Notes under the pieces: generated by a model
What the model was told of the DNA's origin: nothing
Seen by the model: only the letters and a program-made list of their open reading frames with translations
The model's database searches: none
Shown: positions 22,412 through 31,289 of the stretch, piece after piece
How positions within the stretch are numbered: the first letter of the stretch is position 1
Layout: each line of letters begins with the position of its first letter
Position numbers and translations under genes: made by a program
Source of the DNA: Halobacteria archaeon HArc-gm2
Lineage (GTDB): Archaea > Halobacteriota > Halobacteria > Halobacteriales > Haloarculaceae
Assembly: GCA_025517465.1 (NCBI GenBank)
Contig: JAOPKE010000012.1
Location: forward strand, 1 to 64,000
Length of the DNA stretch: 64,000 bases
Reading direction: 5' to 3'

Positions 22412-22515
22412 ATTCTGGAGTTCCTGTGGACCGCAAAAAGTGTAGCCATCTGCCCGCGACGGGCGGTGGAGAGCGCCAGCGCCCGGGCGAGTGAATCGGC
22501 CGCTGGCCGGCTCAT

Positions 22516-22593
22516 ACTGGTGGTTGTAACTTTGCACCGGCGTTCGACGTGGCCGGTGCCGTCGAACGCCGATACGGGCTTACAACCACCAGT
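22516..22593. repeat. Nested palindromic element, copy 1
   Basis: Outer arms are ACTGGTGGTTGTAA (22516-22529) and its reverse complement (22580-22593). Inner arms are GGCGTTCGAC (22539-22548) and GTCGAACGCC (22561-22570). The element ends 1 bp before the uxaC stop codon. A second copy with the same design is at 26314-26394. Without a transposase it resembles a MITE or a mobile hairpin; it may also serve as terminator. Confidence 0.75.
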
Positions 22594-22594
22594 G

Positions 22595-23962
22595 TCAGAA
22601 CCCGTACAGCTCCCGGGGTCGGTCGTAGGCGACGTGCCTGACCAGTCGCTCGGCGTTACCCTCCGGAATCTGGCCGCGCTCGACCATCCGGCCGACGACG
22701 TTGGCGAGCGTCCGCCGGAACATCTCGAAGCGCGAGCCGTAGGAGACCAGCTTCCGCGAGTCGCTCACCATCCCGGCGTGGTTGGCCAGCAGGTCGACGG
22801 AGGCGGCGTACTCCAGCTGGTCCTCCATCCCGTAGGGGCTGTCGTTGAACCACCAGGCCGGACCGATGCTCACGTTCGGGTACGCGCGGGCGACTGTGCC
22901 GACGCCGTAGTAGTGACTCGGGTCGAGCACGTAGAGGACCACCTCGAACTCGCCGTCGAAGCGGTCGAGGAAGTAGTCCAGTCCTTCGACGACGTCGACG
23001 TCCTGCGTCGAGACGTCGCCGCCGGCGTTCGGCCCGAGTTCGTCGTACAGCGACTGGCGATAGCTCCGCACGGCGCCGACGTGGAGCTGGGTGACCCACT
23101 CCCGCTCGGCGTTCAGTTCGCCGACGAACTCCAGGACGTAGGCCTTCCAGTCCTCGACGTCGCGCTCTGAAATGTTCTCCCCGCGGCGCGCACGTTCGTA
23201 GATGCCAGCCGCCCGGTCGTCACTGACGGGCCGCGAGATGGGGTCCGTCCCGGTGCCGACGTCGCAGGCGACGCAGCCGTGGTCGGCGAAGTACTGGTGG
23301 GTCTCCCGGAGCGCGGCGCGGAAGCCGACCAGGTCGGAGACGTCGGGCTCGGTCGCGTCGTCGAGTTCGGCGACGAAGGCGTCCCACGCGTCGGTCTCGA
23401 TCTTCAGCGCCCGGTCCGGCCGCCAGGTCGGACGGACGTCCACGCCGTCGACCTCGTCCTCGGCCCGTTCGTGGTACTCCAGCCGGTCGGTCGGGTCGTC
23501 GCTGCTGCACAGCACCTCCACGTCCATGTCACGGAGGACCTGCTGGGGCCGCATCGCGTCGGACTGGAGCTGTTCCTTCGTCTCCTCCCAGATCTCGTCC
23601 GCGGTGTCGCTGTTGATCGGCTCGTGGATGTCGAAGCGGCGCTTCAGGTCGAGGTGGACCCACTCGTAGGTCGGGTTGCCCGCCAGGTCGGGAAAGACCT
23701 CGGCGAGGGCGTGCCACTTCTCCCGGTTGCTCGCGTCGCCAGTGATTTTCTCCTCGGGTACGCCGCGCTTGCGCATCAGCTGCCAGACGTAGTGGTCGGT
23801 CGCGCCCTCGACCTCCCAGACGTCGCTCCAGTGCTCGTTCTCGACGACTTCCGCCAGGTCGATGTGGTTGTGCGGGTCGACCACGGGGAGGTCGGCGATG
23901 GACTGGTAGAGGTCCCGTGCTGCGCCGGATTCGAGGAGATAGTCGTCGTCAAGGAAGCTCAT
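22595..23962 (-). CDS. uxaC: Glucuronate (uronate) isomerase
   Basis: 455 aa from the ATG at 23962 (MSFLDDDYLLESG). The frame runs 50 codons further upstream, but that sequence lies in the foldback element and looks non-coding. It isomerises D-glucuronate to D-fructuronate. The metal motif PHNHIDL near residue 30 and segments such as SDPTDRLEYH-type and FNDSPYGMEDQL are typical of the UxaC amidohydrolase fold. Its substrate is supplied by the GH67 enzyme at 11805-13886; the next pathway enzyme but one, UxuA, lies divergently at 24400. Confidence 0.93.
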   Translation of the reverse strand: MSFLDDDYLLESGAARDLYQSIADLPVVDPHNHIDLAEVVENEHWSDVWEVEGATDHYVWQLMRKRGVPEEKITGDASNREKWHALAEVFPDLAGNPTYEWVHLDLKRRFDIHEPINSDTADEIWEETKEQLQSDAMRPQQVLRDMDVEVLCSSDDPTDRLEYHERAEDEVDGVDVRPTWRPDRALKIETDAWDAFVAELDDATEPDVSDLVGFRAALRETHQYFADHGCVACDVGTGTDPISRPVSDDRAAGIYERARRGENISERDVEDWKAYVLEFVGELNAEREWVTQLHVGAVRSYRQSLYDELGPNAGGDVSTQDVDVVEGLDYFLDRFDGEFEVVLYVLDPSHYYGVGTVARAYPNVSIGPAWWFNDSPYGMEDQLEYAASVDLLANHAGMVSDSRKLVSYGSRFEMFRRTLANVVGRMVERGQIPEGNAERLVRHVAYDRPRELYGF

Positions 23963-24048
23963 ATCAGTGGAATTGGCTGATCTGGGCATCAAAGTTTCCC
24001 TAGGCATCGTTCGATGATGTTCCGGGAGAACAGCGAACGGAACAGGGC

Positions 24049-24311
24049 CCAACAACAGCCCGAAAGCCCCCGGGTGCTGGACCGGCCGGGACTCGCTGCG
24101 CTCCTCGCTCACTCCGTTCGCTCCGGTGCTTGCGTCGTCCGGGCCGGATCCAGCACCCGGCCCCTTTCAGTCCCGCCCGGTCGGCTGATCCACGGGGCGG
24201 GACTGAAAGGGGCCGAGCGGTCGTCGAGCGAGAACCTGCAAGCACGGCCGAAGGCCGCGCGCAGCGGGTTCGTAGCCGACGAGCGCGAGGGGGCTTTCGG
24301 GCTGTTGTTGG
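24049..24311. mobile_element. 263-bp foldback element with perfect 23-bp inverted ends (MITE-like)
   Basis: The terminal arms 24049-24071 and 24289-24311 are perfect reverse complements (left arm starts CCAACAACAGCCCGAAAG). Inside, CGGGTGCTGG (24071-24080) pairs with 24150-24159. A 21-bp arm at 24158-24178 (core CCCCTTTCAGTCCCGCCC) pairs perfectly with 24195-24215. No transposase frame or clear target duplication is visible. It fills most of the gap between uxaC and uxuA and separates their divergent promoters. The rest of the gap (23963-24048, 24312-24399) shows nothing else. Confidence 0.7.
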
Positions 24312-24399
24312 TTCCAGTAGTGCCGTCGCAGTTTCCAGGACATCCGCCATCACAATGCATGCCGAAGGTATATTGCCGAGCTAGACCCAACCCCGCTCC

Positions 24400-25383
24400 A
24401 TGAACACGACGGTCATGCTGCCGCCGCGGCCGGACAGGCGCTGGACGCTGGCGAAGCAACTGGGAATCGACACGGCGGTGGTCCGGTTCTGGGGCGAGGA
24501 GGAGTGGTGGGAGTACGACTCCCTCGTGCGCACGAAGAACCGGTTCGAGGACCACGGCCTCTCGCTGGACGTCGTCGAGGACCGGCCGCCGATGGAGCAG
24601 ACGGTGCTTGGCAAGGAGGGCCGCGACGAGGAAATCGCGACGGTGAAGCAGCTCCTGCGGAACATGGGCGAACTCGGCATCGAGGTGTACTGCTGGGTGT
24701 GGACGGAGTTGCCGGTGGGCGTCCCCAGAACGTCGGACTCCATCCCCCTGCGCGGTGACTCGCTGACGACGGGATACGACCACGCGGACATGGAGGGCGC
24801 GGGCCCCCATCCCGAGGCCGGCATCACCGAGGAGGAACTGTGGGAGAATCTCCAGTACTTCCTCGACGAGGTCGTCCCCGTTGCCGAGGAGGCCGGAGTC
24901 AAACTCGCGCTGCATCCCGACGACCCACCGATTTCGCCGGTGCGAGGCGTGCCGCGGCTCGTCACCTCACTCGAAAGTTTCGAACGCATCCTCGACATGC
25001 ACCCGAGCCCGAACCACGGCGTCACCTTCTGCCAGGGGAACTTCGCGGCGATGGGCGAGGACGTCCCGGCAGCCATCGACCGGCTGGCCGACGACATCCA
25101 CTTCGTCCACTTCCGCGACGTCGAGGGGACCCCCGACTCCTTCGTCGAGACGTGGCAGGACGACGGGCCGACGGACATGCTGGCGACGATGCGGGCCTAC
25201 GAGGCGGCGGGCTTCGACGGACCCATCCGTCCCGACCACGTCCCCAAGATGGTCGGCGAGGACGATCGGAACGAGGCCCACGCCGGCTACACCGACATGG
25301 GCCGGTTGTTCGCCGTGGGGTACATGAAGGGGCTCATGGAACAGGCGGCCGACGAACCGTCATTGGACGAACGTCGAAACTGA
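24400..25383 (+). CDS. uxuA: D-mannonate dehydratase
   Basis: 327 aa. It dehydrates D-mannonate to 2-keto-3-deoxygluconate. UxuA-type TIM-barrel signatures are present: LALHPDDPP near residue 170, GVTFCQGNF near 206, FVHFRDVEG near 237 and GPIRPDHVPKM near 272. His, Cys and Asp in these motifs are the metal ligands of the family. It pairs functionally with uxaC on the opposite strand. The fructuronate reductase that must act between them is not a classical UxuB here; SDR genes elsewhere in the window are candidates. Confidence 0.93.
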   Translation: MNTTVMLPPRPDRRWTLAKQLGIDTAVVRFWGEEEWWEYDSLVRTKNRFEDHGLSLDVVEDRPPMEQTVLGKEGRDEEIATVKQLLRNMGELGIEVYCWVWTELPVGVPRTSDSIPLRGDSLTTGYDHADMEGAGPHPEAGITEEELWENLQYFLDEVVPVAEEAGVKLALHPDDPPISPVRGVPRLVTSLESFERILDMHPSPNHGVTFCQGNFAAMGEDVPAAIDRLADDIHFVHFRDVEGTPDSFVETWQDDGPTDMLATMRAYEAAGFDGPIRPDHVPKMVGEDDRNEAHAGYTDMGRLFAVGYMKGLMEQAADEPSLDERRN

Positions 25384-25444
25384 CCGGCTCGCCGTCCCTG
25401 AGATGCGATAACACTATTTACACGGAGGGGATTTTCCAAGGTGC

Positions 25445-26314
25445 ATGAAATACTATCGCGTCGCGGCCGACGGCTCCCCGCGTCTCGCGGTCCGAACGGC
25501 CGACACCGCCTACGATCTGACCAGTGCGAAGGCCGAACTCACTTCCTTTCTCGACCTCGTTCGCGCCGCGAGTATCACCGACCGGACTATCGACGAGGTG
25601 ACCGACCAGCTCGTCGGGAACGCCGACGAGATCGACGTCGACACCCTGGAGAGCGATATCGCCGCACCTGTCGCGCCCAGTGAGGTCTGGGCCGCGGGCG
25701 TCACCTACCAGATCAGCGAGGAGGCCCGCGAGGCCGAGAGCGCGATGCCCGACATGTACCGCGAGGTGTACAACAGCGAGCGCCCGGAAATCTTCTTCAA
25801 GGCGACGCCGAACCGCACCGTCGGCCCGAACGACCGCGTGGGGATCCGCGAAGACTCCGAGTGGGACGTTCCGGAGCCGGAACTCGCCGTCGTTCTCTAT
25901 CGGGGCGACGTCGTCGGCTACACCATCGGGAACGACATGTCCAGCCGCTCCATCGAGGGCGAGAACCCGCTCTACCTCCCGCAGGCGAAGATCTACGACC
26001 GCTGTTGCTCCATCGGCCCCTGCGTCACCTCCGCGGCGGGCGTCGGCGACCCCCACGACCTGGAGATGTCGATGACCATCGAGCGCGACGGCGAGCAGGT
26101 GTTCGAGGGGTCGACCACGACGGCGAACATGGCCCAGACCTGCGAGGACCTGGTCTCCTACTACAACCGCCACAACGCCGTCCCCGAACTGGCCGTCCTG
26201 CTGACCGGCACCGCCATCGTCCCCGACGAGTCGTTCACGCTCCAGGAAGACGACCACGTCAGCATCGACCTCGAGAAGATCGGAACCCTCGAGAACGACG
26301 TCACTGTCGTCTGA
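25445..26314 (+). CDS. xacE: 2-keto-3-deoxy-D-xylonate/arabinonate dehydratase, FAH family (XacE-like)
   Basis: 289 aa. It converts 2-keto-3-deoxypentonate to alpha-ketoglutarate semialdehyde in the haloarchaeal pentose pathway, by analogy with the H. volcanii enzyme. The FAH fold has metal ligands in VPEPELAVVL (two Glu near residues 140-142) and GNDMSSRSIEG (Asp near 165). It follows uxuA by 61 bp with a TATA-like CTATTTAC in the gap, so it probably has its own promoter. A second FAH-family gene at 62781-63623 is more distant. FAH enzymes vary in substrate; the assignment rests on similarity and on the nearby xacD- and xacA-like genes. Confidence 0.82.
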   Translation: MKYYRVAADGSPRLAVRTADTAYDLTSAKAELTSFLDLVRAASITDRTIDEVTDQLVGNADEIDVDTLESDIAAPVAPSEVWAAGVTYQISEEAREAESAMPDMYREVYNSERPEIFFKATPNRTVGPNDRVGIREDSEWDVPEPELAVVLYRGDVVGYTIGNDMSSRSIEGENPLYLPQAKIYDRCCSIGPCVTSAAGVGDPHDLEMSMTIERDGEQVFEGSTTTANMAQTCEDLVSYYNRHNAVPELAVLLTGTAIVPDESFTLQEDDHVSIDLEKIGTLENDVTVV

Positions 26315-26394
26315 TAGTGGTGGTTGTAAGCGCTTACCGGCGTTCGACGTAGCCGATTCCGTCGAACGACAGTCAAAGTTACAACCACCACTAT
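26314..26394. repeat. Nested palindromic element, copy 2
   Basis: Perfect 16-bp outer arms ATAGTGGTGGTTGTAA (26314-26329) and its reverse complement (26379-26394). Inner arms are GGCGTTCGAC (26339-26348) and GTCGAACGAC (26361-26370). The left end begins in the stop codon of the FAH gene. It shares outer-arm core, inner-arm sequence and length with copy 1 at 22516-22593, while the spacers differ. Confidence 0.75.
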
Positions 26395-26421
26395 GCGGCG
26401 GCGACCGCGACGACAGTCGCG

Positions 26422-28644: not shown

Positions 28645-28675
28645 TAGTGTCGGTGAAACGTTCCGACCGACACTA
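28645..28675 (+). terminator. Hairpin directly after zinc-ribbon microprotein
   Basis: TAGTGTCGGT (28645-28654) and ACCGACACTA (28666-28675) are perfect 10-bp inverted repeats with an 11-nt loop. They start on the base after the TGA. Probably a terminator or transcript-end stem; no T-run follows. Confidence 0.5.
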
Positions 28676-28785: not shown

Positions 28786-31044
<2,259 letters not shown>

Positions 31045-31289
31045 CCGACGCGAGCACAGCGAGCGACGGCCTTTTTTGGTCCAGATTTTTGCACGAGCGG
31101 TTCGCCGGAGGCGAACCCGAAGTGGAAAAAGGTGGTCGTCAACCTCGCGGGCGTCGCCGTCGTCGACGCACAGAACGAGTAACCGCCGCGAGCACAGCGA
31201 GCGCTCGGCATCCACGCGAGCGAAGCGAGTGTGGGCTCGCGGGTACAACGCTCCCGCGGTGTTTTTGGTCCAGATTTTTGCACGAGCGG

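Follow-up and report, generated by a model that had tools for sequence, protein, structure and literature searches.

What are the two look-alike palindromes that bracket the uronate genes uxaC, uxuA and xacE in the haloarchaeal genome of HArc-gm2, and how did they come to lie there? We examined them in a 64,000-nucleotide stretch of contig JAOPKE010000012.1 (hereafter the window), in the 4.25-Mb source genome (G000), and in other haloarchaea. Both belong to a dispersed family of mobile palindromic elements that duplicate 3 bp of their target. The explanation we consider quite probable is an order-wide family of ~80-bp non-autonomous DNA elements, resembling miniature inverted-repeat transposable elements (MITEs), that are moved in trans and insert at C-TSA-G-like sites (S, C or G) with a 3-bp duplication.

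A dispersed palindrome family

With borders corrected from the initial annotation, elements 1 and 2 (Table 1) each comprise 15-bp outer arms, a 5x5 internal loop, and a 15-bp inner stem. The perfect arm TGGTGGTTGTAA is present on both sides of element 1 (22518-22529 and 22580-22591) and of element 2 (26318-26329 and 26379-26390), the inner stems match, and the two elements can be aligned across 80 bp, in agreement with the matching outer and inner arms noted at the outset. With up to two mismatches allowed, the window contains 6 matches to the arm; 100 shuffles averaged 0.93, and none reached 6. Only six places in the window carry a perfect 12-nt inverted repeat whose arms are 30-70 nt apart, and elements 1 and 2 are two of them. 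The predicted folds of both elements are much stronger than those of shuffled sequences on either strand (z -5.7 to -9.5).

The family extends well beyond the uronate genes. In the source genome, 107 matches to the arm were obtained when one mismatch was allowed, compared with 3 for a reversed control, and at least 49 paired copies were identified: 46 in 55 loci around arm matches, together with copies at C1:357363, C17:53375, and C16:72380. Most are 78-81 bp long; the remainder measure between 58 and 365 bp, and the longest copies contain additional inner hairpins. Paired copies here and in two other genomes of the same genus, G005 and G006, were counted up to five arm mismatches and 450 bp. 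The elements do bracket the uronate block as described, but since they are two of about 50 copies in the genome, this arrangement is incidental. Nor is the palindrome a gene-specific terminator confined to this locus, given the dispersed copies in many genomes. Some of the remaining single arms belong to another repeat with an arm-like start, ending ...CTGAAAGGGCGAGG and unrelated to the palindrome (L037, L038, L042, L043, L044, and L048).

A degenerate arm with its TSA flank had 193 matches in the Halapricum genome G009 and 100 in G245, from another family, with 0 for the control in each. Using a covariance model, we found matches in 84 of 146 genomes of the family Haloarculaceae (18 of 22 genera) at E 1e-3 and in 107 of 293 genomes of the order Halobacteriales (44 of 87 genera) at E 1e-5. 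This search covered family and order genomes and considered at most 32 (family) or 15 (order) candidates per genome, so that copy numbers are lower bounds; a single weak match in a genome may be due to chance. Roughly one in three of the sampled Halobacteriales genomes thus has a match to the repeat, and the genomes in which copies were counted hold from tens to about a hundred. Relatives were also found in named plasmid records of Natrialbaceae, Haloarculaceae, and Halococcus, and a scan of one collection of genome contigs returned 12 stretches, of which 11 are haloarchaeal and the other, L200, is clostridial. Viral contigs gave no match to three element patterns, and phages gave none to two elements. 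A literature search, mostly at the level of titles and the beginnings of abstracts and hence weak evidence of absence, found no description of this palindrome family.

Insertion with a 3-bp target duplication

Identical triplets flank 78 of the 98 paired copies in G000, G005, and G006. All are TGA or its reverse complement, TCA. The same was seen at 80 of 88 places in other genomes (44 TCA, 34 TGA, one TAA/TAA, and one CAA/CAA), a set that counts each place once and excludes the places of the G000 and G005 sets as well as two weak matches (L211:2158-2266 and L271:1206-1281). The TAA/TAA copy coincides with the TAA stop codon of an MTHFR gene (by Pfam); the triplet therefore originates from the target. 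The surrounding target approximates C-TSA-G: of 86 oriented places, 61 have C immediately before the triplet and 51 have G immediately behind it.

Comparison of related genomes revealed sites from which the element is missing. Element 2 is absent from G006, where the sequence reads ...GTCGTCTGA GGC... with a single TGA. Equally clean empty sites were found for L345:8282-8353 in G062, for L241 in G091, and for L085 in G006, where the single triplet is TGG. These four orthologous empty sites, each with one triplet, therefore demonstrate insertion with a 3-bp target duplication. Element 1 is an old insertion, and its orthologous place in G006 holds a decayed copy with the left half deleted and the right half kept. 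At L345, insertion into CTGAG cut a 209-amino acid open reading frame (ORF) into parts of 105 and 112 amino acids, the second of which received a new ATG from the element end and the triplet.

The initial annotation had offered a MITE as one possible identity, and this is the reading that the dispersed copies, terminal inverted repeats, 3-bp duplication, and empty sites sustain. As in MITEs generally, the elements are short, have terminal inverted repeats, lack a transposase gene, and generate a target duplication of constant length.

Two features of the insertions were also observed. At TGA insertions, the element's terminal TA and the TGA together form ATGA, an overlapping start and stop, on the far side, and an ORF of the split gene begins in frame at such an ATGA (L345:8352-8356). 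Tandem elements at L239:485-676 and L265:605-765 have one 3-bp triplet in common, as would be expected had a second element entered the triplet duplicated by the first.

Table 1. Elements 1 and 2 in the window, with their flanking triplets and terminal inverted repeats
Feature	Position	Strand	Basis
Element 1, mobile palindrome, 80 bp	22515..22594	- (canonical strand by model R1)	R1 match, 80.4 bits
Element 1 left target-site triplet, TCA	22512..22514	.	Sequence
Element 1 right target-site triplet, TCA = TGA stop codon of uxaC on - strand	22595..22597	-	Sequence; UxaC by Pfam
Element 1 left terminal inverted repeat (TACTGGTGGTTGTAA)	22515..22529	+	Sequence, arm search
Element 1 right terminal inverted repeat	22580..22594	-	Sequence, arm search
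Element 2, mobile palindrome, 79 bp	26315..26393	+	R1 match, 77.9 bits; clean empty site in same-genus genome
Element 2 left target-site triplet, TGA = stop codon of FAH gene	26312..26314	+	Sequence; FAA_hydrolase by Pfam
Element 2 right target-site triplet, TGC, decayed TGA	26394..26396	.	Sequence; empty site with single TGA
Element 2 left terminal inverted repeat (TAGTGGTGGTTGTAA)	26315..26329	+	Sequence, arm search
Element 2 right terminal inverted repeat	26379..26393	-	Sequence, arm search

Other repeats were seen in the window. A short, weak match to the element model at 28645-28675 (18.8 bits, E 0.017) is possibly a decayed remnant. Between uxaC and uxuA, positions 24042-24318 hold a second dispersed palindromic repeat with 60-nt arms that are 75% complementary and inner 24-nt arms, and this repeat has many further matches across G000, G004, and G006. 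Positions 30998-31203 and 31073-31289 hold a near-perfect 68-nt direct repeat (99%, 138 bp apart), at the 3' end of a 752-amino acid ORF (28786-31044), and a repeated 28-nt block with TTTTTGGTCCAGATTTTTG.

Placement at stop codons

Both window elements had been described as abutting stop codons. They are indeed adjacent, but the contact is closer than that, because the flanking triplet is itself the TGA stop of the uxaC or FAH gene. Using a simple caller based on codon usage, we found exact placement on a TGA stop for 32 of 46 copies in G000, 20 of 32 in G006, and 8 of 20 in G005. Eight of ten ORFs ending at an element triplet match Pfam families, for example triosephosphate isomerase and a tRNA synthetase. 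In the window as background, 20 of 236 TGA sites that are non-coding or stops (8.5%) and 14 of 76 CTGA sites (18%) are stop codons. A matched null was built from the gene-free host intervals of G000 and G006, taking 77 of their 78 copies for TGA and 64 for CTGA. Against this null, which rests on a home-made gene caller, 52 of 77 loci fall on TGA stops where 25.1 are expected, and 44 of 64 where 31.6 are expected when limited to CTGA sites (P 8e-8). The null is conservative, because an interval that hosts a stop insertion always holds a stop, which raises the expectation.

The elements thus prefer stop codons in G000 and G006, and do so less strongly elsewhere; this is a preference and no rule. 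Insertion into a stop codon would yield stop-TAG...CTA-stop and leave the upstream protein unchanged, a simple route for a mobile element in a gene-dense genome: insert at a stop codon and rebuild it. One source of the bias may be that the target core is itself TGA; another, that surviving insertions are those that break nothing, perhaps with additional targeting. The bias is in part due to the core site and in part to survival, with some excess left over.

How much of that excess calls for targeting can be asked of two versions of the mechanism. The first refines our explanation: the enzyme needs only C-TSA-G, coding insertions are purged, and what remains lies at stops and between genes, without special targeting of stops. 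A coding insertion at CTGAG does exist (L345), C precedes the triplet even away from stops (9 of 9 such sites in G000), and the excess within CTGA sites is of moderate size, yet that excess is still significant against a null with its own home-made gene caller. We give this version slightly less than an even chance. In the second, the element targets stop codons as such, and a possibly single-copy host enzyme recognises the folded palindrome and makes a 3-nt staggered cut, as a counterpart of the REPIN/RAYT system; this we regard as unlikely. The family opens to test target choice versus selection at stops, and the effect on mRNA ends of a common mobile 3' hairpin at tens of genes.

Several results weigh against our overall explanation. 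The flanks are unequal in 20 of 98 and 8 of 88 copies, most of them one base off a TSA pair and a few not. The preference for stops is less marked in G005; of the 88 places in the mixed sample, to which a gene caller trained on another genome was applied, only 35 lie on a stop; and in plasmid records, for which the gene table is incomplete, 5 of 17 places end an annotated coding sequence exactly at the triplet. The stop excess within CTGA sites is moderate. Finally, among the matches listed for G000, G005, G006, and G009, in which transposase genes were not surveyed, there is no long element with these ends and its own transposase.

Arm pairing and the moving form

The structure was examined in an alignment of 69 distinct copies of 78-81 bp over 82 columns. 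In this alignment, the 15-bp outer stem, 5x5 loop, and 15-bp inner stem pair 91.1% of cells, against 77.6% in shuffles, and the covariation score is 0.338 against 0.114. Structures slid along the alignment scored 0.015-0.135, a control that favours the named structure because it was read from the same sequences. Arm bases differ between subfamilies while Watson-Crick pairing is kept: G-C, U-A, C-G, and A-U pairs all occur at outer column 8/75, and the variable columns 6-8 show 75 double changes. In 58 of 69 copies the two arms carry the same bases at positions 3-9, with nine versions represented, and columns 9-15 are nearly invariant. This pairing constraint on the arms suggests that the element may move or be recognised in a folded state, such as a DNA cruciform or hairpin, or that arm pairs may be homogenised.

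Could the palindrome instead be a structured RNA or transcription terminator, retained at gene ends by selection and dispersed only secondarily? Its placement at stop codons, the strong RNA folds predicted on both strands, and the compensatory changes would all fit such a role. However, G-U pairs occupy only 4 of 207 cells in the freely varying columns 6-8, fewer than expected of an RNA there, and the orientation of the interior relative to the stop, counted in copies with clear ends, is near-random in G000 (21:16). Related genomes differ cleanly in the presence or absence of copies, one copy splits a gene (L345), and seven element loci matched no Rfam family at the gathering score. Four sub-threshold Rfam matches, to animal microRNA or long non-coding RNA families, were taken as chance hairpins. 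A DNA element is favoured in the first instance by the near-random orientation, by the low number of G-U pairs, and by copies that lie away from stops or interrupt a gene; an RNA or terminator retained by selection appears highly improbable.

A different mode of movement would be that of a REPIN-like or IS200/IS605-like hairpin, in which a Y1 (HUH) transposase mobilises a single-stranded DNA form and the right triplet belongs to the element. The two inverted conserved ends, a length fixed near 80 bp, pairing kept over sequence, and the lack of an autonomous copy among those found would be in keeping with this, and REPINs, as described in the source available to us, have these traits too, compensatory changes included (PMC3116915). 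The flanks indicate otherwise: near-identical elements are bordered by TCA/TCA, TGA/TGA, and once TAA/TAA, so the right triplet follows the target, and the same source, in the part available, describes no target duplication for REPINs (PMC3116915). A strand-specific process would also lock orientation, whereas G005 (8:6), like G000, is near-random, though G006 is skewed (13:5). On the orientation counts and flanking triplets, we set the locked-orientation model aside and consider HUH-type movement very unlikely.

Returning to non-autonomous elements moved in trans, we infer both the trans mobilisation and a folded intermediate. Judging from the 3-bp duplication, an enzyme supplied in trans would make a cut staggered by 3 nt in the target, in the manner of DDE transposases. 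Some IS5-type elements generate 3-bp duplications. So do PIF/Harbinger elements, according to the portion of the report available (PMC2213677).

Candidates for an autonomous partner were sought by pairing left and right arms across G009. At L295, the element loop holds a nested 1113-bp IS630-type insertion sequence (IS); this candidate was rejected because the same IS sits with its own ends at unrelated sites in L315 and L337. A second long candidate, L296, proved to be an element interrupted by an IS4-type IS, and a third, the 731-bp L297 with its unequal flanks, was interpreted as separate decayed copies. The IS630-type IS itself (L295:1045-2157, L315, and L337) encodes its transposase in two overlapping frames, and its four copies in G009, one of them inside the loop of an 80-bp element, have an identical DDE part. 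The palindromes offer a way to look for an enzyme that moves orphan palindromes in archaea.

Relation to known systems

The nearest haloarchaeal parallel is with the SMRs of Haloquadratum walsbyi. The available text describes these as 80-110 bp repeats without a transposase, present in up to tens of copies, with terminal inverted repeats unrelated to known transposons; the SMR-A families show a strong site preference, and the mobiliser is called 'enigmatic' (PMC3119063). Compared by description, the palindromes resemble SMRs in size, terminal inverted repeats, lack of a transposase, copy number, site preference, and haloarchaeal host (PMC3119063). They differ in that SMRs, in the same partial account, are reported to insert into other mobile elements without a target duplication (PMC3119063), whereas the palindromes generate a 3-bp duplication at gene ends (stop codons) and intergenic sites.

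REPINs and their RAYT enzymes provide a second comparison. Like the REPINs of the available description, the palindromes are hairpin-forming units with conserved ends, compensatory changes, and no self-encoded transposase (PMC3116915). The REPIN-type plan, a hairpin built from a pair of inverted repeats that show compensatory changes, is found in architecture only, and unlike in REPINs, the flanking triplets here duplicate the target.

Mycobacterial interspersed repetitive units (MIRUs) are also short mobile repeats that lie at a codon boundary with little effect on genes, in their case at start codons, as far as the accessible description goes (PMC12548453). The elements here are instead palindromes for which no coding role was seen, coding capacity not having been examined systematically. 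The ATGA left on the far side of palindrome insertions, read from the sequence, may be noted beside the MIRUs.

With prokaryotic and haloarchaeal MITEs, as presented in the portions of two sources available, the family has in common the lack of a transposase, terminal inverted repeats, target duplication, dispersal, and presumed trans mobilisation (PMC10969869, PMC3119063). The differences are that no parent transposon with matching ends was found among the matches listed for G000, G005, G006, and G009 (transposases not surveyed), that the palindromes' length is near-constant across the order, and that their arms vary yet remain paired. The best reading of the family is that it is MITE-like.

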